DNA of 64,000 nucleotides from Xestospongia bergquistia (taxonomy: Eukaryota > Porifera > Demospongiae > Haplosclerida > Petrosiidae): contig OZ014411.1 of assembly GCA_963965975.1 (NCBI GenBank), positions 4,263,001 through 4,327,000 of the forward strand, given 5' to 3'. The notes below the pieces were generated by a model. That model was not told where the DNA came from. It saw only the letters and a program-made list of their open reading frames with translations, and made no database searches. The position numbers were made by a program, and so were the translations under genes. The first letter of the stretch is position 1. Each line of letters starts with the position of its first letter. Shown here in pieces: positions 18,514 through 40,303 of the stretch.

Positions 18514-19801
18514 TCACTGGTATTCCCATTCATAGACAACGAGACGTTGTTTTGGAGCCTGTGCCTTATGTTTTGCATAACAGTAAGCACAGCAAATGCA
18601 CACTACAAGAAGGCCAAAAAGGCCAAAAATGATACCAAAGGCAATGCCCACATCTTGAAGAATTGAGTCCCTCCCTGTATCTAAATATGGCATGTAAAGT
18701 TATATTCCAATTGCTATAAAAACATGTACAATTACCTGAATTTGTATTGTTACAGGTAGTAAGAGTCACATGTGGGCCACTTGCAGGAGATAAGTTGAAT
18801 TCTGCTGGTAAGTAAGTAACAATCATTTTTAATTTACTTACTACATTCCAAAGAGACATCTTTACTATGATTATAATTAGAATATGGGAATAATGAACAC
18901 CTCTCACAATCAACAAGACAAGTGTCAGAACTTAAACAATGAACACTATCCAACCAAATAGGCAAAGAAGTAGAGCCAGCACTACAACCAAAATATTATT
19001 ATTATTATTATGTATAAACAATCAACTTACTAGACTGATATATAATTATAACGAGAATAACCTGAATATCCTAGCTGTTTACAGGCAACATTAGCATAGC
19101 TTGCACCAAAACTATCATGACACACTGTTTTCCACTGTTCATTACAATAGACCTCAAGATGACCTTGATTAGAATAGGTTCCATTCATTAAGCGAAGTTG
19201 TCCTGAGTAAGGATTGCTATCCCAGATCTTGGTTGTATCTAAATAACATATTTAAAATACACAGAGATTGATCATAATACTTACAACAATCAACAAAAGC
19301 ATCATGAATATCTTTGTTACAATAACTAGTGTATACGTAACTATGATAACACTGTAACAGAACAAGGTAGCTACCAGATGGACAGTCAATGTCTTCTAGA
19401 ACAGTCGGAGCTGAGTCTTCTCCATATCTGTAAGTTATATTACACATTCAATGCAATGTAAAGATTCTCACATTGTTGTACTTCCAGCAGAGCCAAAAGA
19501 GGAAACACCAGTAAACGCTAGTTGATAGCATATCACATTAGCTTCATTATAGCCAAAAGAAGAATCATCACAGATATTACCCCATTTGCCACCATAATAG
19601 ATCTCTACTATACCCGAAGAATAGGCTTGTGTTGTAGAATGGAGACCATTTCTTATTAGGCGAATTGCTCCAACACCTTTATTATTATTTTGATATATAT
19701 ATATAGGAATGCTTCTAATAATTTTAATAACTGTATTTACCTTGTCCATTGACTGTTGAGATTAGGGCTAAAAATCCAATAAGTGTTGACATGAATTTCA
19801 T
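18514..19801 (-). CDS. SRCR-domain type I membrane receptor B (329 aa, 7 coding exons)
   Basis: Coding exons: 19741-19801, 19472-19676, 19285-19427, 19031-19238, 18842-18981, 18736-18801, 18514-18680; total 990 nt including the stop. The architecture is the same as receptor A: signal peptide (MKFMSTLIGFLALISTVNG), SRCR 1 (GAIRLIRNG, WGNICDD), SRCR 2 (GQLRLMNGTY, NVACKQLGYSG), a membrane-proximal exon, one transmembrane segment and a short tail. Exons 2-7 have exactly the lengths of gene A (205, 143, 208, 140, 66, 167). The extracellular exons are close in sequence, while the transmembrane and tail exon is unrelated (here AYCYAKHKAQAPKQ), suggesting different signalling or an exon swap. The last acceptor could also be 6 bases further in, keeping the frame. 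A leader intron (19813-20038) is likely. Confidence 0.88.
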
Positions 19802-22634
19802 TGTTATTACAGCTAAAATGACATACAAAAGTAAACAGGTATATTAGTTGGTAATACATAATGATGTATCTCTAAAGTTCAAACGTGTTGGTTATGTAAT
19901 TTCTATGCAATATTTAAGATAATATAGATGATCTTTGTGCGAGTCTAAATTCATGATATAGGAAAAAAAAGACGAAAGGAAGACAGCATATTTTTCAGTA
20001 CCTATCACAGCAAAGAGTTTCAGAGTACTCATACTTACATTCAATAGTAGGAAAAATGTGCTAGACGTCTATCCCTTTGTCTCTTGTGCGGTAGCGCTTT
20101 TTCAAGTTTCGTTAATAGACTAAGGATCCGCCAAATGATGAGGAGATTCTCGTTTGTCGTATATAACAAATGGCCTGATATGGCATGTGCTTTACCACAT
20201 AATTTGTGCGCATGCGGATTACAAAATAACGACATTTATTCACGTAATGTGGCTCCATACACGTTAATATGAAGCTCTGTTTTGGCTAAAAAGTGGATAT
20301 CATAGTACCAGTGCAGATCAACACTTTCAAAAGCAGATACCTTATGTAAAATCATAGCTTTATGTACAAACAATTTTAAAGTCTTCTCAGTAGCTTTCAA
20401 ATTATCATAACTAAATGGAAGAACAAGGAAGAGGATTTTGTCATCCTTACACTGGTAAGTAGTGCCATAGCATTTGTTCTATTGTCTTATTGATATTATG
20501 GCATTAGTCTTATGAAGATATGCAATCTAGTGTATCTAATTCTGAAATTGACCATTCAATTCCTGTTGACATATCAGAGGTATCGATAAAATACAATAAT
20601 TACTCTCAATACTATAGTCTTCTCCTTTATATGAACAACTGAGTCAAGTTAATTAACCAAGTAATTCAACCTCAATTGTAGCAATTAACAGAAACCAACT
20701 AGTTAGTTTCAGTGAATACAACTTTCATTATAGTGATAATAGTGTCATATTTCACCTAATCTTTAGTCTTTTTGAATGTTACAATCACAAAACAATGATA
20801 ATCAAGCATCAATTGTAGAACCAACTTTGTTCTTGCAGTATGTACACACTTTTCTATATCTCCTTTATTGTAATAGTATGTTATACAGAGTCAGGGATGT
20901 ACTATGTGCAACAGTTACAATCCCACTTACAATATGGACCATGTCATTATACTCCTATTCAATCATGTATATATAATAATGTAGCTCAAATATACATACT
21001 AGTAACAGTGCCAGCTATGATTCTTTGATTTTGTTAATGGTAAGGGTGTTTGTCATAATCAAGTCAATGACTTCCATGTAATTTAGGCTAAACAATAGGT
21101 GTACTCAAAGAGAAACTGTCAGACGATATAGTTATGACTTGCATGTTCTTAGTTTTGTGATTGAATATTGATATCCCAGTATGAGGGGTAGTGGCATTAT
21201 TATATTTTTTACAATTTTGTGGTTGTTTGTTTTCATATATACTATAATGTAAATTATATGATAATCGTGCTATGTTCATTTCTTCATATATATATATATA
21301 TATACTATATGTTATTATATTACTATATACAAGATGTTTACAGTAAGTTCCAATATTTAATTATAAAGGTGTTGACAGTATGGTATATAAAAGTTGTTTT
21401 GACTAAAAAACATGAAAATAAGGTTTATGTGTATTAATTGTAACTATTAGTAAAATGATACTTTTAAAACAATCTCACAATTAACATATATATATTGTAT
21501 ATAGAATGTTAATTTTGTTGAAATTTAGTTTGTAGTTGTTATTCATTTGTTCACATTGATAGTATTACTAAATTGACAAACTAAAATGGTTCCAAGCATT
21601 TTCTTCTTGGGCCAATTCTAGTTTACTGAAGATTGCTTATATTAACTGGAAATTATCTCACCTAGAGTGTATTGTCTCCAATTTACAAAACCAGGCATCA
21701 AAGAGGTTCAATTTTTTTAACTTGTATGTAAAGTCTGTTAAAAACTGGTGTAAACATTACTATAACACTAATTGTTGCAAAATGTAGCTGGTAAATTTAT
21801 TACAATGTATGTTTATTGATTTATAAGTGATAAAGCACTAACAGCACAATAAATTAGTAACGATATGCATCCATGACATGGATACTGATAGATATCTAGT
21901 ACATATACTCAGTATGCTATTAGTGTATGTCCATTAGTACATATATCTATTGGGTATCTATCAGTATCTTTATACTGATAAATACTCAGTACATAGTCAG
22001 CATTTATTAGAGTATGTTCTCTATCTTTAGATAGGCTATATACTTGTAGCTACCTTTACGTTACTTTTGGACTATTTTTTAGATTAGTATTAGGTTACTT
22101 TTTTAAAGCTATTAATTATTATTAATTACATTACTATTATGGCCACCTTTGGCAACATTTGGACTACTTTTAGGTTAACTTTAAGCTACTTTTGAAACTA
22201 TTTACTATAGTAAGTTATAAATGCTATATATCCCTTAGTTTACAAAATGCATAGCCTAGAAATGAATAGATCTTTAAAAAAATCGTATTTGCAAAATTGT
22301 GGATAAAATTGTTGTCATTTTTTCCAGTTTATACAAGGGGCACTTAGCAAAGATATTGAGCAATTGATGCTGATATTCGAGGTATGTCTGTGTTGCATTT
22401 AAAAGATATAAGCTTGCTTATTCTGTGTATATGAAAATGAGTTTTTATGATATCCTCTTTTTGAGGATGTTTCAAATGAGTGGCGCGAGAATGTTTACCT
22501 CCGCGTACATTGTTGTTATTGCTATAAAATAACAATATTTCACAAAAATAATACTACAAACTAAGCAACTAGTGTATGCACTTAAACGTATATCAATGTT
22601 GGTGTCATCAAGATACTGAATGACTGGCTGTTTC
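19802..22634. other. 5' flank of SRCR gene B, then AT-rich spacer
   Basis: The leader exon of gene B probably ends at 20039. 20100-20280 has more CpG than its surroundings and weak similarity to 16300-16450 upstream of gene A, so it may be the promoter. 21280-21305 is a short TA tract. 21880-22020 has short cryptic repeats of GATAC/GTACATA type and 22050-22200 has repeated CTACTTTT-like runs. No gene seen. Confidence 0.4.
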
Positions 22635-23687
22635 TTAAACTTTTGTGATACCAATAGTCATTTTTTGATTGGCTTTTGTTGGAAGATTATACTCAATGAC
22701 GTAATTTTCATATTTTTTAGTTTTGAAATTTGCAATTGTAGTAGTGTAAATAATGTCTTTAGTCGTAAAAGTCTCATAACTACATCCATTATAACATGTA
22801 TAGTCATGTTGAAATAGCTGTTGGATGCCTGCTGCATGGAATCGATTGTATAGGCTGCAACGAGGATGGCCATATTTTGAAGGTAATCCACTACTGGAGA
22901 ACACTGAAATTGGATCGATTGCATTGAGGAAACTATCGGTATTAGCCTTACCATTGTCTGCTCCATGATGAGACAGACGTAACACATCTGATTTAATATT
23001 ACCTGAGCACTTAAGGAAGTTATTAATGAATTTTACGCCTCCTTCGAAATCTCCAGGTAAGAAAACTGTGTTCCCTTTGTAGCTTAGTCGCATTACAATA
23101 CTATCTCCATTTGGGCTATAATCGTCTGGATCTGGACAGTTATTGTATCCTGAGGCCTTTATTTCTAAAGCTGCAGCTTTTCCACAAATTGTGATTGTTC
23201 CACATGGACAACATGATTTAATTTCAGTCGTTTTTAGTCCTGGTACTTTAACCCCATATCTAGTCCAGGGACAAGAGTGGTACACACGTGGATATGGCTT
23301 TCCTTGAGCTTTCAGAGAAGTCAGAAAAGGCTTTAGTAAGTTAGTGTGGTCTAAGTCTGAGTGAGTGAGGAAGATTGCTTCAACATTCTGTCCATTAAGG
23401 TAGTTGATTAAGTCTTGTTGACTGAACCCAGTATCTTTCTTTGAGCCAAGATCAATGATTGTTATATCCCCTTTAGGACACTGGATAACAGTGCAGTCTC
23501 CTTGACCAACTGGAAGAGCAAAGATGTTGATGTTTCCATCTGCAGCAGGAAGTTTTGGTACTTGTGGTTCTACATGAAAGAGATTAAAGAAGTTGGGTTT
23601 TTCATATAGAGAATAACGTATTGGGTTTGCTTGTGTATGGAAAGCAACCACAGAAAAAACTACAAGAAATTGTAGCAGAGATGACAT
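22635..23687 (-). CDS. Secreted metallo-beta-lactamase-fold hydrolase, ComEC/Rec2-like, intronless
   Basis: A 350-aa protein in one exon. Residues 1-20 are a clear signal peptide (LLQFLVVFSVVAFHTQA), so it is secreted or lumenal. The body follows the metallo-beta-lactamase fold: a strand block ALPVGQGDCTVIQC with IIDLGSKK (about 57-84), metal motif T-H-S-D-L-D-H at 108-114, a GD pair at 212-213 (LPGDFEG), SHHG at 239-242 and a late His in KYGHPR at 274. Order and wording match the C-terminal domain of bacterial ComEC/Rec2 competence proteins, where the domain is thought to act on the non-transported DNA strand; some relatives are phosphodiesterases or nucleases. All likely metal ligands are present, so activity is plausible, but the substrate is unknown. 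Extra Cys pairs (159-163, 298-302) fit an extracellular, disulphide-bonded form. TATATATA lies at about 23717-23724 just upstream. The lack of introns and the bacterial-type fold raise the possibility of horizontal acquisition. Confidence 0.82.
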   Translation of the reverse strand: MSSLLQFLVVFSVVAFHTQANPIRYSLYEKPNFFNLFHVEPQVPKLPAADGNINIFALPVGQGDCTVIQCPKGDITIIDLGSKKDTGFSQQDLINYLNGQNVEAIFLTHSDLDHTNLLKPFLTSLKAQGKPYPRVYHSCPWTRYGVKVPGLKTTEIKSCCPCGTITICGKAAALEIKASGYNNCPDPDDYSPNGDSIVMRLSYKGNTVFLPGDFEGGVKFINNFLKCSGNIKSDVLRLSHHGADNGKANTDSFLNAIDPISVFSSSGLPSKYGHPRCSLYNRFHAAGIQQLFQHDYTCYNGCSYETFTTKDIIYTTTIANFKTKKYENYVIEYNLPTKANQKMTIGITKV

Positions 23688-24199: not shown

Positions 24200-27100
24200 T
24201 ACATCAATTTATATCAAATTTACATAAGATTTGTACCTTCCAATCTAATACAACTAACATTAAAATGTACTGTTTGACTCAACTTATATATTAGGGGAAT
24301 TCCCATTAGACATTCAATTATCCTTAAAGTTTTAGTTACATCTTTTATAGGCAACATATTTCTGAAACAAGGCCCATCTGTAAGAGAATCACTCCAGTTT
24401 GCTGAATTTAGTACTGAAAGGCTGTCAAAAAGCAATTGCAAAGGAATTATTGAAGATAAAAGGAAACTGGCTTTTCATGACATCCTTTAACTCTCCCTTC
24501 ATTATACAATTTTTACTAATATTCCATTACATTAAAATAACTATAATCATAATCCAATCATGCACCAGAAATGAAGTAGATAGTCGTGTCACAAGATCAA
24601 TGTTTTGGCCAATATCATCAATCTTATAATTATATTGACATACATAAATATAACCAAAACTTGGCAAATAAATAAAGGCACATTTGATTGCTGGCCAAGT
24701 TTTGATTACTTTGTTGTATCTGCTGCATCTAAGCTAAACACTACTGTAGTAAACATGACAATATTAAGATATTAATGCCAAGAGATGAATTGCATATATA
24801 ATTCTTGTTGGCTTATGATGAATTTTACATATGCATTCACTGAAGTTCAAAACATCATAGTTTTTTAGAATACAGTGTGGATATCAAGTAAAGAGTGAGG
24901 GTTCAAAAAACATTGGTAATTTCATTGCTTTTATGCTGGAATTTAAGAAGTAAAGATTGAGAGGTAATACATGATCAAGCCCTCCTCAATGGTATTGTGC
25001 CTTCACATCTAAAGCATTTATAATAAGACAGATCCAGTTTGAATATCAGATCAATTTCTGTGATGTACTTTTGAGAAAGAACAAAAAAGAAATATCTTAT
25101 TTGTTCTCTGTTAGTACTAGAGAGTGGAATTAGTACATTCAACTACTGTAGGCTGTTATAAAAGAAAGACACCATCTTGCACACACGATAAATATGGACT
25201 GGGAATGAAGCGAAGCGGACACCAATCTACCATTGATAAAAGGTTTATCTTGAACAATTCAATAACCTTATTTTATGTCAACATGCACTGTAAACTAGTA
25301 CCTACACTGTGAAAACAACTTTTATCTTTATCCTGAGCTTTCAGACTCATGATCAGTGTTTTAAGTGAGGTATTATACTTAAAAGTTGCTGAAACTTCTA
25401 CAGCACACTCAACTGTTTTCAGAATTATGTTGATTTGCTGTAAGTTGGAATAAAAACTCAAGAAATGATATATCAACAAGACAGTTTAATCCTTCAGTGT
25501 GTAAAGGGAGCCTACTATGGGAGACAACGTATGAAATGCAGTAGGTGGTACTTTAATGTTAACTATAGGTCTATCAGCAAGAGATGGTATTGACAATGGT
25601 AGCTCATTGAATGTCATCATTTTAAGGGCTTGTAGTGTGTTATTGTTTTCTAGCAAATTTTTGATTTAACCATCAGTATTATAACTTAAATCAATCAATA
25701 ATGATAGTGATTTAATGGTTTTGTTTCTTGTTATTCCATTAACAATACTTACAATGCAAGGCAAAGGCAGTAAGGCATCAATAACATATTGTTGTGTAGA
25801 AACCATTTCAAGATTTTTCTCTAGTTCAGGTAATAAAGTTTGATCAATAGGCTTTTCACTCCTTTGAAAGAAGTTGTCATTTCAAGACAAATGCAACATC
25901 TTAAGGTGATGATGTAACTCCACTAACATTGTAATTACTTTTACTGTTTTTGTAAGTCAATTTTAACCTCTTCCAGGTTACTGAAGAATGACAACTGAAA
26001 TAAAGCACAAGATGAAAGTGTTAATTATATGTTAGGCCTCTTACAGTAGTTTGGGTATGAGCTACTCACAAGTGCATTAGTGAGAATTTGTACTTTCTGT
26101 ATGGTAAATTCAGATAGCTCCAAGTGTTTCCATGCCATATTAGGATTAACTGAGAAAGTAACTGTCAGATAGTGATAGCTCTTTTAGATAAGGAATCATA
26201 CATATACAACTGACTGATGGATAATGAGCTGTTGTCAACAGATAGGGCCAATACTTGACATGATCTAGTGTTTTGTGATTCATGTAAAAAATGAAGAAGG
26301 AAGATATTATGATTATTATTGAGATGAACTTCACAATTATTAGTTATAAACTCACTTTGACGAAATCATGAGAGGTAGTCAGGTTGAGATTTAAACAATA
26401 AATATTTTTTGTCATATAATTGAATGTCTTTGTTAAAAAATTCCTTATAGTTTTCATGCCTGAGCTGAGTTAGACTAGCTATGAACCTTAGACTCGATCG
26501 AAAGTGAACATTTTAAAGTGTTCTGCACACACTTCCTCTGTATTTTCATACTTAGGTATCCACCATGCTGCTAGAAATCTCTGAATATTTAGGTGAAGAA
26601 ATTGAAACCTTTTTCTCCACCTAACATAAAAGTTAATTGTCATTAATCCATGAAACTCTTAATTCATTGACTGAGGAACATCGTGGCAAAATTCTTAGAG
26701 CGTAAATTCTAACTTTATTGATTGCTATGTGATTGTAAGCTAAGGATAGAAATCTAAACATTTCTTCAAAACATGTATTTGTAGGCTTGAATGTAACTCA
26801 TTCAGAGCCAATTCATATTGTCCATGTGTGAATTGCATTTTAACCCAAGTATTTAATATGTTTCGACAGAGTGTTGTCTTATTAATACCATGCAGGAGAA
26901 CCATCGACTAATATTCTAAGAGACTAATCGTTGTCACTTGGTTTAAGAATATCGTGGATATCTATCATCTCATTTTGAATAACTTCAGGTATTTTGTTTA
27001 CTTGTCCTCTTAACATATATCATGTTTCTGTAGTATTGTTTGAGATGTAGCATCTCTGTATTGTGTTTGTAGTAGTGTTAATCTTCCAAAAGTAATCTTG

Positions 27101-28200
27101 TCCAACAGGTGGTAGCTAGCTTGTAGGGACAACAGGTTGGTGCTTGTATTTGTCAATTATAATGGCACAATATGCTTCAAAATCAGGATCTAATAAACTT
27201 GTGTGTTGATCTTCATCATCAGTACATCTATCTTAGTAAAGAAAGAACCATATTAATTTGAGTATAACAGTTCATGAATTAACTTACCTAATTGATGCAA
27301 TATATTTATATTAATTTTTCTTAGTCCTTGATGTTGCTGGCTTCTTAATATATGACAAATGTTCACTAGATACATGTGTGGATTTTATACACTTGTAGCT
27401 ATCTCTGTAAAACACTTACTAATTTACTAGCTTTTAACAAGCCACTTTCTTTTTTTGTTGTTAGTATGTCACTGTAAATCTCAAATGGTATCAGTCCTTT
27501 AGCATACAATACATTAGTTACACTGGTAAAGATAAGAATAATCGTATGACTAAGATCAGCTGAATGAATATGTAGGAGTTCTCTTGGAATAGGTATAACT
27601 ATAAAAATGGAATGCATAATATATTACTTATATATAGAAATAGTACCTTTGTTCTTGATATTTAGCTATTTTTCAATATAGCAGCTATATCCATATCCCC
27701 ACAGCTCTCAACTGCTAAAATTAGTTTTCTTTCAAGAGGGGATGTAGTGTTTGCAATCCACCATTGTAAACCATCCTCCATGGCAAAGTGAGAGTTGTGA
27801 TAGTGATAGTTTTGATCAGTGCTAGCCACCTATCTCGAGTCTCTTTCTTTCCTCTAGTGGGACATTGAGACAACAAGTGAGTTCAATCCATTTATCTTTA
27901 ACAAACCAAACTACTCTTAACTAGAAGTTGTAGGATATTATTTGATGTCAAATCTATTGAAGTAAATAAAATAATTTATTATCAGTTATATATATATATA
28001 ATTAGCTACCTCTTTTAGGTCCATGATTGAGCTTAGCATCTCCTGATAAAATAAGGAATAATAAGAAAAACAAGAGTAGAGAAATTGAAAAGCTACTACT
28101 ATCATCATCTTGTAAACATCCTGACCATAGTGACTCCACCCATGCTGGGGCAACAGGGTGATTTCCAGCAGATGCTATTTGATGACAATTTCATAACCTA
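24200..28200 (-). pseudogene. NLR-type gene (DEATH, NACHT, LRR), heavily decayed
   Basis: Read leftward, the pieces come in NLR order. About 28200-28017: first exon ending in a degenerate 2A-like peptide with a likely donor at AAGAG/GTAGCT. About 27960-27690: DEATH-domain remnants (VKDKWIELTCCLNVPLEERK, then after a frameshift MEDGLQWWIANTTSP). 27617-27399: a second helical death-fold-like segment (LIPFEIYSDILTTKKESGLL). About 27110-26880: the NACHT start (NEMIDIHDILKPSDN, LRILVDG, then after stops and a frameshift INKTTLC, a damaged P-loop where G-x-G-K has become G-x-N-K). About 26600-26560: HLNIQRFLAAWW, typical of the NACHT-associated helical region of sponge NLRs. About 25720-24220: leucine-rich fragments (LLENNNTLQALKM, NTSLKTLIMSLKA). 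Numerous stops and shifts make it a pseudogene. NLRs are intracellular sensors of microbial or danger signals. Confidence 0.75.
28017..28103 (-). other. Degenerate 2A-like ribosome-skipping peptide at the NLR N-terminus
   Basis: Minus-strand codons give a hydrophobic run (SISLLLFFLLFLILSG) followed by D-A-K-L-N-H-G-P. Functional 2A peptides end in D-x-E-x-N-P-G-P after a similar Leu-rich stretch, and such sequences are known at the N-termini of NLR-type proteins in sea urchins and other marine invertebrates. Here Glu is Lys and the Pro before Gly is His, so skipping would be lost. In living relatives the motif would let the protein be made either with or without its leader peptide. Confidence 0.6.
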
Positions 28201-28423
28201 ATACTAAGTCTCCATTGACAGGTGTCAATCATAACTGGAAGGTACAGCGAGTCTTTTCATCAATCTGTTAAATATATAAAACGTATCAATGTTAGGCTAT
28301 ACCTACTTTTTAAATTGATTGTACATATTCATCATTATTTGTACATGTATCTTTGATGCTTTGTGTTGACAGATATCATTTTAAAGCCTGCTTACATATA
28401 GGATTTTTAATAACTTCATTATG
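28201..28423. other. Spacer upstream of the NLR relic
   Basis: No gene. 28212-28238 resembles the motif found repeatedly at 54-58 kb (CCATTGACAGGTGTCAATCAT). Confidence 0.35.
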
Positions 28424-28600
28424 AAAAAACCTGTTAAAACATACCCAAAAACAGTTTGGTATACATATAGATTAGTTATGCATATATAACAACTGTATGT
28501 ATACAAAACTGTTTTTGAGATTTTTTAACAGTTGATTTTTCACAAATCAGGTCACAGATGTTTTGACAGAAGTGGTCCCTTTTTGCAAATCAGGTCACAT
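28424..28600. mobile_element. Foldback MITE, copy 3 (truncated)
   Basis: Matches about the right-hand 177 bases of the family at 942-1190 and 8988-9230, ending in CAAATCAGGTCACAT. The outer 60 bases of the left arm are missing. Confidence 0.7.
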
Positions 28601-33695: not shown

Positions 33696-34565
33696 TATAA
33701 GTTAATGTGTTGAGACATGCCTGCTACATATTCTGGTAAAGAGGTTACGTTACTGCTAAATCTTTCTTTGAGTTCCTTAATGTACTGATCTTTCTTTATA
33801 CCTTTCCTTTATGACAAGGTGGACGTGGACCTGCTTGAAGCTGCTGTAACCTTGGTGCTTACTTATTCTCTTTGAAATACCTCAACACATTCAAAGATGT
33901 TTGGATGGGATTTGCCAACTACTTGCAGTAGACGGTTGTGCCAACCCTCCAAGTGATTGTTTGTCTGTGGTCCTACAGTCTCATATAAATTCCACTCTGA
34001 TGTATGGAATGTTCCAGCTATCCATGTGGTTTCAAAATATGTAACGCATTCATTGATTCTTGGTAACTCTAGAGTATCTGCTTTTATTCCTTTCCTTGAA
34101 ACAAATAGAAACAAAACACAAGAGCAGCTGTTCTATGTACAAATGACTTTAGTTGCTTTGTATTTTCTTTGTATTGGATTTGTAGACCAATGTCTTGAAT
34201 TTTTCTCATAATTGCCTGGCAGAAATGATAATAACATTCTCGATATGTAGATGTTGGAAAATTCAATTGTATTACTTGTTTTATGGCAACTTCAAAGTCA
34301 GCAACCATAGTCTCAGTTTTGAATTGTAGTTGTAAATTTTTAGCTTCCTCTTGAATGATTTGAAACAGTCTGTCATAAGTAGCCCTAGATTTATTTGACA
34401 AGAAAGCATAAACTAGTGGGTGTTGTTTAACTTGTTTAAATGCATGTATGTACAATATTTGATAAAAGAGCTTTGGGCATGTTTGGAAAATTCCATCGAT
34501 GTAGATTATATCAGCTTCACAAAGTATCTTTATGTTGGTGTCTGTTGCAAATACAACTATTTGTC
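33696..34565 (-). pseudogene. MULE-type (Mutator-like) transposase relic
   Basis: Minus-strand frames give, in order, FATDTNIKILCEAD then IIYIDGIFQTCPKLFYQ (first catalytic Asp region), FKTETMVADFEVAIKQ with CYYHFCQAIMRKIQDIGL (second Asp and the C/H block of MULE transposases), and after a frameshift near 34100 the block NNHLEGWHNRL. The N-terminal DNA-binding part is missing, upstream codons contain a stop at the junction near 34560, and the C-terminal tail is interrupted. This is a dead DNA transposon copy. Terminal inverted repeats were not located. Confidence 0.75.
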
Positions 34566-37499
34566 TTCTCCAGAACCATCTTCAGAAAGATCGCTTACTG
34601 TTACTGTACAACAATCAGTCTCGGAATCAGACACTGCTTCAGTTAGTTCATTCATTGAAAGATCATCCATTGTTTTGTGAAGGAACATGTGGTAGGCATA
34701 AATCAAATTTTTCAATTGAACGGTATTTTAGAAAATTTAAAACTATGTGGTATGTTTATTAAACTGTGGTTTGATCACTATACCGGGATATCGCTCAGCT
34801 CTACTAGATCCTTTTACTTTTTTAATCTAGTAAACAAGCTCACAGGCTCTTTGTTTTTTATTTCGTGTTGTATTCTTTTCCATTGTTTTGTTCTTGCAAT
34901 TAATGAAGCTACTAAAGGAGATTGAGGGAGGTGGTAGTGGAAGCTGAATCACTGTAGCTAATGAAGATGGTCAACGTACTTGCAGCTATAGGAAATGGTT
35001 ATTGGTCTTGTGAACAGCCAATTATGTGCCCATTTCTTGTGAATATTGATATATTTTAGACTAACTATGACATTGACTGATTAACTCTTTCACGGACAGG
35101 GTTAAAATTAATTAATTACACGCGTGGGCAGCCCATTTTGTGGTTGTCAATGAATTTTGACATTTTTTTTTACAAATTGTCATAATTCTGAAAAGCACCA
35201 AGGCAACAACAAATGCATCACCACAAGTATTAAGAATATGTTTTAGAAGCTAAAGAGACTTTCGTTTCCTTGATGGCATCGATTAGTGTAATGAAAGTAG
35301 ATAATGCAAATACAGTTTTCTTTCATGATTTTATTTTATTTGTTTTTGTGTAATAAAGCTAAATGATTTATGTAATATGTAGACCTATCATTCTAGCAAT
35401 AGTATTCCAAGTTTTAGAACTGTATGCCAAAAATTCATGGCGCTAGGCAACCTTGTTTACAGCGTCTTCTCAGGATGGCAACCATTTTAGAGTGTTGTGA
35501 TGCAACTTGACAAATGCCAAAAAGCAGCTATAGGAAATGGCATTTGAATCTCTTTAGCAATCATGCCAGCACAGTATGACTTATAAGCTTTAGTAAAGTA
35601 GTAGAAGTGAACTAGTTTGTTGTAATAGCTCCAGTAGTGATTCGCTTTGACAAGAACGAGTGTTGTAGTCTGTAGGTATGTGTGTAGCGTCATCATTAAG
35701 ATGTGTGTGTGTGTGTGTTTTGAGAAAAACGGGTTGTAGTTGCGTCGTTGTCTTTTTGCAATTGCTGAAGAATGCCTATTGTGCATTCTGTAATACCTCT
35801 CAGATGTTGTTTTACTGTGAGACATATGCTCAATTATTTTAAACCACTGAAGCTAAAGGTGGTACTGAAGGTATTAGAAACACTGTATAGAGAACACTAT
35901 TGCTGCTATTATTTTAAAAAGTCCTTATCTTAAAGGGATGGCAGCAATACTGCTCTCTTTCTCATGCATATTCTCACTATTTTGTTTTACAAACTGTCTT
36001 GTGGGCAGGTTTAGATAATGTGTATTGACCTCTGAACCATACATATTATGAGGACTTCATCATAATTAGAATGCTAATAATGATTTTCAACCTCTCTGCT
36101 AGTTTACCGGACGTGCTAACTTTTATTCCCTCTTTCTATAATTTATTGATAGCAGAACGATTTTTATTTTTGTGTCTATAGCAAGCACAGTACACTTAGT
36201 ACTATTAATAGATTTAGTTGTTTATTTGGGTCCTCCATATTAAAATATCAATGTGATTAGAATTTAAAACAATGCAGGCATTATTGATTGGTTGTTAATG
36301 ATTGACTTGACATTTGAAGAAATGTATATATATTATCTGCCAAAATTCAATATAGTATTGTTCTCCAAGGGCAATCAATGTACTTTCTTGGGTATAATCA
36401 TAATTGCTTGTTTGATACATCCAAATGCAGAAAACAAAAAAATTAAAGCAGGGAACACAGTATAAATCAAAGTATGTACACATATACTACTAATTTTTGA
36501 AGTTGTTTGAATGCATCAAACTGCTTTCAACTTGCTTACTAGAAAAATATAATATATATGATGACATCACTAGGTGTCATTTAATGATGATGTCATCTGT
36601 CATCTGTTTTTTTGTGCTTTGCAAATTCTTTTCTAATAAGTGACCTCAAGTTTGTTGAGGGGTTAATCTTTTTAGTTCGAAAGAACTATATTAAATGCAT
36701 GTGGAGAACATTCGAAATGCTTTGAACATAACCATACATACAGGCAAGTGAAGCTATAAAATCTACATCCTGGTATGTCAGGATAATCTATATCATGATA
36801 ATAATAATTTACATTCACTTAGGCAAAATTAACAGAAGAATTGTGCTTGCTGTAAATAATAAACAAATTGTTAGTTCTTTTCCAACAGTAAGTTATAGAT
36901 TAAAAGCAAAGTTATAGATTAGCAAAAATGGACTAAATTGTGTGTGTTTGACAGTTATTGGAGTTTCTATTTGATGAAAAAGTTATGAAGTAAGTTCACT
37001 TTTCGAACAGAGACAAGACTAAAAGGCGATAACAGTAAGCAAGTCAAACTAAGATTTAATAAGAATAACACACTGATTGTTCATTACCATAACTCACAGT
37101 TGCACAAGAACACCACAAAAATGGCTGCTATAGCTGGTCACATGCTTTTACAAAAGTAATGTGTACATACATTTATAGTTTTGTCTGTCCATCATACATA
37201 ACAAATAATATAATTATTGTATGAGACTACAAAATATGCATGTAATGATGAAGAATTGAAGAATCTCTCTTAAGCAGCAGTCAATTAAGTCCACCAAAGG
37301 TTTCACCAAAAACTGGAAAACATTCGAAGTACTTCGAACAATTACAATAACCATAAATTAATAATAATTAAACTATGTACACTTTACATGAAAAAAAAGA
37401 ATTGAACAATTACAATAACCATATTAAACTATATGCATTCAAATAATATGCATTTAAAATGACGCATCTGAATGAATAATAGACAGGTCAGTAATGACT
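34566..37499. other. Non-coding stretch, no gene seen
   Basis: A TG dinucleotide tract occupies 35702-35718. 35084-35108 has two TTAA sites around CTCTTTCACGGACAGGG, which resembles a piggyBac-type end, but no partner end was found. Short open frames here lack coding features. Confidence 0.4.
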
Positions 37500-38834
37500 T
37501 GGATGTAGTTTTGCTACAAGCAGGACTATAGAGCGGAAGATATTTAAGGCCTGCTCCAGAACCTCAGGTCGAAAAAGAGAAAATTGCTCACTTTCATTTG
37601 TGTCAGATGTATAATCTGCTACAAGTGATCTATCGAATGGACAGACACCAACAACTTTTAAAACTAGATTGAATGTTTTTCATATTGAAGGATTTACTCC
37701 AAGCTTTGGAGTAAATCATACAAAGAAATTGCCTTTTTCTCTGGGTTTTTCATGAAAAGTTGGTGGCAAACATTTTTTCACTCTGCTTTGAGAGGACTAA
37801 AACAACCACGGTCAAGTGCTTGTGTGATGTGAGTTGTGTTCAGTGGAAGAACAAACAGGATAATCTGACTTTTAGCTGCTAAATTAATAGTTTCAGGTGA
37901 GTAGTGTGTTGAATGTCCATCCAATAACAACAACAAAGGACGAATTTGATGTGCGTATAGGAGAAAGTGTTCTGTAAACCAATGGTGGGAACAAGTCCTG
38001 TGTCATCCAGCCACTGTCAGACAGGCCACAAAGTGTAACTGGAATTTCTCCTTTTGTAAGTTCAGGATTAAGCGACTTTCGTTTAAAAGATAACAAATGG
38101 AGGTAAGGCATACCCTGCAGCACAAGTACATGCAAGAACAGTCACTTGGGATTTAGTGTCAGAACTAATGTAACATGGATTTTTAGAATCTTTCTTGTCA
38201 ATGACTTTTCCACACTTGGGGTTTAGAGGCATACCCGTTTCATCACAATTGAAGACGCGTACTGGTTTATCAAAAATATCATGCTTCTTTAACGTCTCCT
38301 CTAATGTGTTGAAATATCTGTTTAAAACATCAGGATCACTTGCAGCTGCTCTTTCATGGATAAAGGCATAGGAGTCTTAAGTGCCAAGTAAGGATGACGT
38401 TGATGAAACCTTTCAAACCACCCATTTGAAACTGAAACTTGCAAGCCTTTAGAAGTGAGAATCCTTTCCACCAATGACAGAACTTGCTTTCTGGTGTGTG
38501 GATATCCTAACTTTGCCACTTGTATAAGGAAACTTGCCAACTTTTACTCTTCCTCGAATGATAAGTAAGGACTAGGACCAGGGTGACTTTGAAAGCCCAC
38601 CTTTCCAGAGACTCTATCGTGAAGTGACGATCGAGGCACAGAATATTTATCTGCTGCTACTCTAATTGACACTCCTTCTTCAACAGCCTTAACTGCTTTT
38701 TGCATACATACATCATTCCAACTCTTATAAACTCCTCGAGGACCATGTGATGTTGGTTTAGAATGTGAATGTGAAGAACAAGAGTTGAATTTACTTTTAA
38801 CAATCTTTTGTACAAGGTGAGGATAGGAAGACAT
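37500..38834 (-). pseudogene. Pogo/Tigger-like (Tc1/mariner) transposase, frameshifted
   Basis: From an ATG at 38834 leftward comes a pipsqueak/CENP-B type helix-turn-helix (KAVEEGVSIRVAADKYSVP), a CENP-B like second DNA-binding part (LGYPHTRKQVLSLVE, VSNGWFERFHQRHP), then after a frameshift near 38350 the DDE_1 catalytic core: VFNCDETGMPLNPK (first Asp), LLLLDGHSTHYSP (second Asp) and THITQALDRGCF (third Asp), ending with CPFDRSLVADYTSD. Catalytic residues survive, but at least two frameshifts (near 38350 and near 37900-38100) and a stop near 37790 inactivate it. It is relatively young compared with the MULE relic. No terminal inverted repeats were identified. Confidence 0.8.
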
Positions 38835-38884
38835 CTAAAAAGACAGATTGACACTGCTGTCAAACCATACTTCTAACATAAATT

Positions 38885-40303
38885 GCAAGCCCTAGTTATG
38901 TTGCAAGGGAACGTCTACAAGAGGACAATACCTTAGAGGACAGAACTGCCCTATCCATTAATGACATCATACAGCTTCTTGAGTTCTGTCTCAAAGCCAC
39001 TTACTTTTCATTTAGAGGACAATTTTATCAACAAATTTTTGGAACTGCTATGGGTTCCCCTGTGTCTGTGATTGTAGCAGATATGGTGATGGAGAATATA
39101 GAACAAAGGGCCTTAACCTCCTTTTTACACCCTCCTATTTTCTGGAAAAGGTATGTAGATGACACCTGTGTCGCCCTACTACCTTCGATGGTTGAGAGTT
39201 TCCATCAACATCTCAACTCCATTGAACCTTCGATCCAGTTTACAGTAGAGATGGAAAGCAATGGCTGTTTACCCTTTTTGGACATCCTCATCACTAGAGA
39301 TAGTGATGGGTCACTATCAACTGCAGTTTATCGGAAACAGACCCATACTGACCAATATCTTCAGTTCTCATCCCACCACCCTTCCTCTCACAAACTATCT
39401 GTTTGTCGCTCTTTATTTTCCAGGGCCTTAACACACTCATCCTCCCTTGTACAACAGGTGGAGGAAGAATCTCTTATTTTTCAGGCTCTACAAAAGAATG
39501 GGTATCCAATAATTTTCATCAAGAGATGCCAAAGACAATCTACCCTAAAAACAAAACCACCTAACACTAGTGACCAAAAAACAACTAGAATCACCATTCC
39601 TTATGTACAAGGTCAATCGGAATCTATAAAAAGGATTCTCTCCCCTCTTGGTATAGAAACCACCTTTAGATCACAAAACACCTTAAGAAAAATCTTATCC
39701 AGGCCTAAAGATACAATACCTATCATAAAGAAGTCTGGTGTTGTTTATCAGATTTTTTGACAAGACTGTGAGGCAAGTTACATTGGACAAACTGGCAGAA
39801 ATCTATCACTATGCATCACTGAACACAGATGAGCAGTACGAAAACTGGATATTTGTTCTAGTGCTGTATCTGAACATGTCTGCCAGACTGGCCACTCCAT
39901 TAACTGGGATAACCCTTCTATCCTAGCTCACCACCCTTTCCTCTGGCAAAGAATCATCCTTGAATCTTGGCACATCAACAACATCTATCAACCGTGAGAA
40001 GGGTCCTCTTCCTTGGACTTACCTCACATTACGGTCCAATATGCATGTAAAGCAGCCCACCCACGCTATACATGCCAAGATGCATAACATCAAAGCACTG
40101 CATACGTAGCAGCCCACCCACGCAACGCATGCAGGAATGAAGATTGTTTATTGTTTTGTTGAACTTTGTACCTTAGCGTGTAGTATAAATAGAAGCTTTT
40201 TTACTTTTACTTTTATTATTTAAGCCACTGTCGAAGATAGTCGCTTTGACTATTGAAACGTTTGGCGTTAATACATTTTTTGTTTGGTGAAATAAAATGA
40301 ATA
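38885..40303 (+). mobile_element. Penelope-like retroelement 1 (RT plus GIY-YIG), 5' truncated
   Basis: Plus strand. The reverse transcriptase begins mid-domain (LLEFCLKATYFSFRG, TAMGSPVSV) and keeps the catalytic YVDDT near 39154-39168 and FLDILITRDSDG. After a linker (VQGQSESIKRILSPLG) comes the GIY-YIG endonuclease (GVVYQI, then ASYIGQTGRNL), interrupted by TGA stops at 39758-39760 and about 39830, where Cys and Arg codons are expected. The RT half, 236 codons from 39050, is open. The 3' region holds a hammerhead-type motif and ends near 40303 before a TA tract. Penelope-like elements copy their RNA using RT and open target DNA with GIY-YIG. This copy is dead. Confidence 0.85.
40224..40266 (+). 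ncRNA. Hammerhead-ribozyme-like motif of Penelope-like element 1
   Basis: Order: GCCA (stem I), core CTGTCGA, stem II of AUAGUC paired with GACUAU around a short loop, GAAACGTT, then TGGC closing stem I. It is a type I arrangement with a minimal stem III, as in ribozymes known from Penelope-like elements. The first core strand is CUGUCGA rather than CUGANGA, so a normally invariant A is U and activity is doubtful. Confidence 0.6.

Follow-up and report, generated by a model that had tools for sequence, protein, structure and literature searches.

A pseudogenised 2A-like leader exon in the sponge Xestospongia bergquistia and its family of putative ribosome-skipping leaders on NLR-type sensor genes

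The stretch of genomic DNA analyzed here (hereafter the window; 64,000 nucleotides, C1:4263001-4327000 of the Xestospongia bergquistia genome) is likely to contain a first exon that has decayed into a pseudogene. It belongs to a large gene family in which intact copies of the exon encode a 2A leader that is predicted to cause ribosome skipping and stands at the head of intracellular immune-type and death-domain proteins. The initial annotation had proposed a corrupted 2A box on an NLR relic, with intact paralogues elsewhere in the genome, and this proposal is supported by the sequence comparisons described below.

A decayed leader exon and its gene relic

The hydrophobic run followed by D-A-K-L-N-H-G-P that was originally noticed at 28103-28017 on the minus strand was confirmed: the frame is open, and the exon to which it belongs has 137 matches in the genome. 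The first exon indeed ends with the box, as had been claimed, whereas the extent assigned to it did not hold: the exon is longer and occupies 28232-28010 (minus strand). It begins with an ATG at 28232 and reads MIDTCQWRLSIRL, a stop codon and then NCHQIA...LNHGPKRG, with a splice donor, G/GTAGCT, following position 28010, so that the exon end takes the form ...LLLFFLLFLILSGDAKLNHGP-KRG/GT. The in-frame TGA is codon 14 (28191-28193), a position at which Trp is nearly invariant in an alignment of 12 leaders. The minus-strand frame 28190-28002 is open, with the translation ...SISLLLFFLLFLILSGDAKLNHGPKRG or, in a fuller reading, NCHQIASAGNHPVAPAWVESLWSGCLQDDDSSSFSISLLLFFLLFLILSGDAKLNHGPKRGS. A hydrophobic stretch, SISLLLFFLLFLILS (28044-28088), lies directly 5' of the corrupted 2A box GDAKLNHGP (28017-28043), for which the family form is GD[I/V]E[L/V]NPGP. 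The window copy fails the D-x-E-x-N-P-G-P octapeptide, with D-A-K-L-N-H-G-P in its place; in F2A numbering, which beyond D12, E14 and N16 was derived from the motif itself, the changes are V13>A, E14>K and P17>H, and the retained residues are D12, N16, G18 and P19. The best non-self match of the exon within its own genome has an E value of 2.7e-14 at 58% identity, and the window site was recovered by a paralogue's leader (E 2e-12). Given the stop at codon 14, a box without the Pro that precedes the terminal Gly-Pro, and a broken NACHT part, the window copy should neither skip nor target and, to judge from its sequence, is an ordinary pseudogene. Just upstream of the relic's leader there is an inverted repeat (28424-28538; arms of 34 nt, 82% complementary), possibly a MITE.

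Between 28256 and 24990, the window aligns successively with the leader, Death, second-domain, NACHT and C-terminal parts of the paralogues. The relic is collinear with Death-NACHT genes across ~3.3 kb, the post-leader exons of paralogues matching the window with E values down to 9e-34. A stop or a frame change is present in every relic part that follows the leader. The relic of intron 1 (27954-28009, minus strand as are all parts of the relic; GTAGCT...TTCAATAG, delineated by eye from the alignment) has 56 nt, and the intron has 55 nt in seven C10-type relatives. The adjoining relic of the Death-domain exon (27671-27953; PF00531 in all six homologous members) is stop-free and spread over three frames; the paralogue alignment to this part begins at 27972, owing to intron bases included in the query. 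The relic of the second N-terminal domain exon (27262-27587; CARD in one of six members, E 0.0065) contains one stop and one frame change. The NACHT exon is represented by a first part with several stops and a frame change (26803-27244; PF05729 in the homologue, E 2.5e-24) and by a continuation (25803-26715), preceded by a gap that corresponds to residues ~142-364 of the L034 NACHT exon product, which have no counterpart in the window. The C-terminal part (24990-25848) has several stops and is LRR-like by eye only. Of the two domains in the original description of a NACHT/LRR relic, NACHT is clear in the nearest relatives, and LRR is less certain: a Pfam scan of two C10-type homologues detected no LRR in their C-terminal part, and LRR_6 scored above the cut-off in the C4-type relative L050.

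Several other features of the window were recognized by eye. Directly downstream of the NLR relic, an open frame of ~350 codons (22635-23687, minus) appears to encode a secreted ComEC-like metallo-beta-lactamase protein, and exons at ~19040-19810 (minus) resemble those of a gene encoding SRCR repeats and a signal peptide. A 292-residue frame at 38882-39760 (plus) resembles a piece of the reverse transcriptase of a Penelope-like element, and broken transposase-like frames on the minus strand are MULE-like (33863-34581) and pogo/Tigger-like (38083-38834), respectively.

A large family of leader exons with a conserved 2A box

A search of the genome (146.46 Mb in 21 contigs) seeded with the window exon yielded 137 matches, the exon itself and 136 others, spread over contigs C10, C14, C4, C3, C11, C8, C1, C2 and C5; this search was not biased towards NPGP because the query's own box is damaged. 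The intact leaders that were measured have 67-78 residues. A conserved head (MID.QWR..IGLWYC) is followed by a linker that changes rapidly, and ~15 hydrophobic residues then lead up to the canonical 2A box, GD[I/V]E[L/V]NPGP. The context 5' of the box in intact relatives is hydrophobic and leucine-rich, of the LVLFLLLLLILSGD type, and the KD-19 maxima across the 50 leaders measured range from 1.64 to 2.77, the lowest being that of L070, which belongs to another family. Pooled pairwise dN/dS (Nei-Gojobori, 40 full leaders) is lowest in the box, at 0.13, and amounts to 0.21 in the head (codons 1-17) and 0.41 in the hydrophobic part, and the linker value, obtained from 127 equal-length, closer pairs, is 1.10; neither these values nor the leader counts are independent because the paralogues share ancestry. 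Read at face value, the substitution pattern indicates that the head and the box are under constraint while the linker drifts. A scan of viral contigs with the leader alignment detected no relative among 600 pattern stretches.

Among the first 50 loci read, 49 (including L070, from the other family) end with [S/A]GD[I/V]E[L/V]NPGP, and the window alone departs from this form. Sixteen further loci comprised 11 without the exact pattern, one with a stop and four with the pattern outside leader matches. Leaving out L086 and L087, which have a 2A box in another context, 64 of the 66 loci examined were tabulated, 63 of them family leaders; the tabulation covers 62 of the 137 leader matches (L070 counted), and the other 75 lie outside it. 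The expectation that intact NLR paralogues would carry the 2A box was borne out: D-x-E-x-N-P-G-P is present in 54 of the 54 tabulated leaders with an intact head-to-box frame, NLR and non-NLR loci taken together, and in 52 of 52 once L085 and L088 are set aside, these two being no test of box conservation because they were found by the box pattern itself. Broken leaders, a class that takes in L058 (frame open, without the family head) and L080 (no box recognized), have a canonical box in four of nine cases and a departing one in five. The difference between intact and broken leaders (54:0 vs 4:5, Fisher p 1.8e-5; without L085 and L088, 52:0 vs 4:5, p 2.1e-5) is only a guide because the paralogues are related. 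One intact leader, L020, has a second tandem box.

At the genome scale, a degenerate 26-base 2A pattern produced 118 matches and its reversed control none, and 89 of the 100 pattern matches listed fall inside leader matches. On contigs taken as fully listed, the exact pattern is present in 83 of 100 leader matches; the 17 without it include ten that are canonical at the amino-acid level, five broken leaders (the window among them), L070 and one unread match on C5. The 2A boxes of L070, L086 and L087 (C4 8.60-8.90 Mb and C1:21899170) stand in another context, PRHRRY...SGDIELNPGP; several copies of this kind are present on C4 and, judging from the three copies read, might belong to a retrotransposon family with its own 2A.

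Leaders in phase with NLR genes

In genomic DNA, all 22 loci tested (19 of nine kb and three shorter) have a donor in phase 1, and within 500 nt of it a Death-like or second-domain exon starts in phase. Together with the collinearity of the relic, this result fits the exon into an NLR gene model, as had been assumed at the outset. The postulated order of hydrophobic leader, 2A box and Death domain likewise holds in the relatives, with the exception that five of the 22 loci are without the first Death exon, the leader passing straight to the second domain (...TPSELFR). In seven C10 loci, the 55-nt intron links ...NPGP-K-[T/I] to ELTSSNALRLLVKSGF, a Death exon.

NACHT is encoded in the next exon of L034 and L037 (PF05729, E 2.5e-24 and 1.4e-23, respectively) and was detected in a further relative (E 1.2e-19); the best PDB sequence match of the NACHT part is NLRP3 (E 2.8e-16). 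All six members of the Death exon type matched PF00531 at E <= 0.1 (best 1.9e-6), and another type of post-leader exon did so in five of five cases at E <= 1 (best 3.9e-5); the Death scores are modest, that of L034, 22.2, falling just under the cut-off of 22.6. For the second Death-like exon type, a structural model with a pLDDT of 76.6 had Fas/FADD and ankyrin death domains as its top Foldseek matches (probability 1.00; E 0.065 and above, none <= 0.001). The second N-terminal domain, with its single CARD match among six members, gave a weak model (pLDDT 62.5), and searches of solved structures with three N-terminal domain alignments returned nothing useful. The genome-wide Death search, in which 150 of 983 candidates were scored, was saturated by other Death genes.

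Within 4 kb, 46 leaders have a NACHT match downstream on the same strand, none has one on the opposite strand, and 10 have one upstream on the same strand, as expected for tandem arrays. A leader or box is present within 5 kb upstream of 47 of 97 NACHT matches, the latter number being a minimum for the genome; of the remaining 50, 30 are on C2, without such leaders nearby. The segment of C2 at 8.83-9.15 Mb contains 29 clustered NACHT matches with no 2A leader match nearby and provides a natural comparison set. An intact leader does not equal an intact gene, given that L032 and L046 are broken in later parts.

Leaders upstream of ankyrin and ZU5 genes

Unexpectedly, and beyond what the initial annotation could see, the leader also precedes ankyrin and ZU5 genes, an assignment made mostly by position. 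No NACHT match is found within 9 kb downstream of 90 of the 137 leader matches, the window relic among them. Three non-NLR loci, L071, L072 and L073, were read to 3.5-4 kb. In L071, the leader is followed by Death, an unassigned part and ankyrin repeats (E 4.8e-65); the Death match (E 0.023) is below the cut-off, and the exon is 72% identical to the Death exon of L034. In L073, the order is leader, Death-like exons, which were recognized by eye and have no Pfam match, and ZU5 (E 0.002; 18.8 bits vs a cut-off of 21), and in L072 the leader is followed by a Death-like part. By position, an ankyrin match lies within 9 kb downstream on the same strand in at least 19 of the 90 cases and on the opposite strand in none (150 ankyrin matches listed), a count that is too low because the ankyrin match of L071 itself is absent from the 150 listed. 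The same positional test places a ZU5 match within 9 kb on the same strand of seven leaders, one of them broken, and on the opposite strand of none; it used 37 of 126 ZU5 matches, two of the ZU5 matches being below the cut-off, and inspection by eye placed the remaining 89 elsewhere.

Proposed mechanism and alternative explanations

In the intact genes, the leader would be followed by a phase-1 intron, after which an exon for a Death-like or second N-terminal domain would connect to NACHT(-LRR), ankyrin or ZU5 parts. During translation, the Gly-Pro bond would be skipped, probably in most rounds, and the leader would be freed from a cytosolic sensor starting with Pro. In the unskipped rounds, the hydrophobic segment would function as a signal or anchor and direct the sensor to the membrane system, so that one gene may give rise to both a free and a membrane-linked form. 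Since the hydrophobic part lies ~50 residues into the protein, it may serve as a signal anchor rather than as a signal peptide that is cleaved off, which, compared with the 26-residue urchin leaders, makes membrane targeting less direct. An N-terminal 2A sequence of a sea-urchin NLR is reported to skip at ~80% in vitro and to act as a signal sequence when unskipped, and the P3A substitution, which affects the same Pro as is lost in the window, abolished recoding and sent the fusion mainly to the Golgi (PMC4981915). Recoding by F2A requires D12 and N16, and a role of E14 is also given (PMC12846837). A broader scenario, which we put forward with slightly less than even confidence, is that the 2A leader exon has been shuffled onto Death-fold NACHT, ankyrin and ZU5 proteins as a translational switch, common to the entire death-domain repertoire, between membrane-linked and free cytosolic forms, and that the released leader peptide, constrained and with a hydrophobic tail, has its own job.

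Among the alternatives, the most serious treats the leader as an ordinary signal-anchor or transmembrane segment, of which the 2A-like box would be a conserved, non-recoding tail. The KD-19 maxima of 1.64-2.77 in 50 of 50 leaders measured (the lowest in L070, of another family) are compatible with such an anchor, as are the transmembrane domains reported in NLRs of the sponge D. avara (PMC12909245); nevertheless, we consider it unlikely, given that D-x-E-x-N-P-G-P is present in 54 of 54 intact leaders (52 of 52 unbiased), that the box has the lowest dN/dS, 0.13, and that recoding by F2A depends on D12 and N16 (PMC12846837). Considerably less probable is the possibility that the 2A leader is part of a non-LTR retrotransposon lying beside the NLR genes after insertion, and not of the genes themselves. 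Although the 2A boxes in another context (L070, L086 and L087, putative retrotransposons) reside in the same genome, members of the leader family share a conserved head of their own, the donor phase is constant, each of the 22 loci has a domain exon following in phase, and the downstream NACHT, ankyrin and ZU5 matches are all on the same strand, with none on the opposite one.

For the window copy itself, one could argue from the retained D12, N16, G18 and P19 that its box is a functional variant 2A, or that a loss fixing the sensor at the membrane was retained. This is highly improbable: codon 14 is TGA, the following parts carry stops or frame changes, a stretch of NACHT is missing, and tabulated boxes are off consensus only in broken leaders; with damage in every part of the gene, a functional variant is rejected. 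Least credible of all, with a negligible probability, is a chance resemblance to 2A, for which it could be said that five of the eight motif positions could occur randomly in a leucine-rich frame; it was ruled out by the paralogue match (E 2.7e-14) together with the collinearity with the whole gene.

Comparison with known systems

The reading that we favor, a family of 2A leaders predicted to skip at the head of sensor genes, has to be placed among other sponge NLRs and other 2A systems. The Amphimedon NLRs that Yuen is said to have described in 2014 are reportedly lineage-expanded NACHT genes as well, some with an N-terminal Death or CARD domain. The NLRs of Dysidea avara are alike in the same respects, namely, a lineage expansion of NACHT genes and, in some of these, a Death or CARD domain at the N-terminus, and transmembrane segments are noted in some of them; the main text of that article does not contain the terms '2A peptide', 'leader' or 'signal peptide' (PMC12909245). 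Given that account, 2A leaders might explain the transmembrane segments predicted in some sponge NLRs (PMC12909245). The open-licence literature searched yielded neither a 2A leader on NLRs outside the sea urchin, sponges included, nor a single leader common to NACHT, ankyrin and ZU5 genes.

The picornavirus-type StopGo/2A, exemplified by F2A (PMC12846837), shares with the present boxes the octapeptide consensus and a leucine-rich context, which contacts the exit tunnel; unlike viral F2A, the boxes described here form part of an N-terminal leader of host genes. The closest known counterpart is SpNLR2A of Strongylocentrotus purpuratus (Roulston et al. 2016, Traffic, PMC4981915), which has in common with them the D(V/I)ExNPGP box, the preceding hydrophobic run and the location at the N-terminus of Death-NACHT sensors. 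In S. purpuratus, 2A boxes occur in non-LTR retrotransposons too (PMC4981915). The urchin leaders are 26 aa long, and signal peptides are predicted for 12 of 14 (PMC4981915), whereas those described here measure 67-78 aa, combine a conserved head with a fast linker, occupy their own exon and are found also before ankyrin and ZU5 genes. Both recoding and targeting were shown for the urchin leaders and are predicted for the sponge leaders. An N-terminal 2A on NLRs is already known in one urchin, and a leader that spans gene classes was not found in the literature searched. The presence of more than 100 boxes in a second animal genome, on NLRs and beside ankyrin and ZU5 genes, would suggest that recoding is a general means of splitting death-fold signalling proteins between membrane and cytosol.
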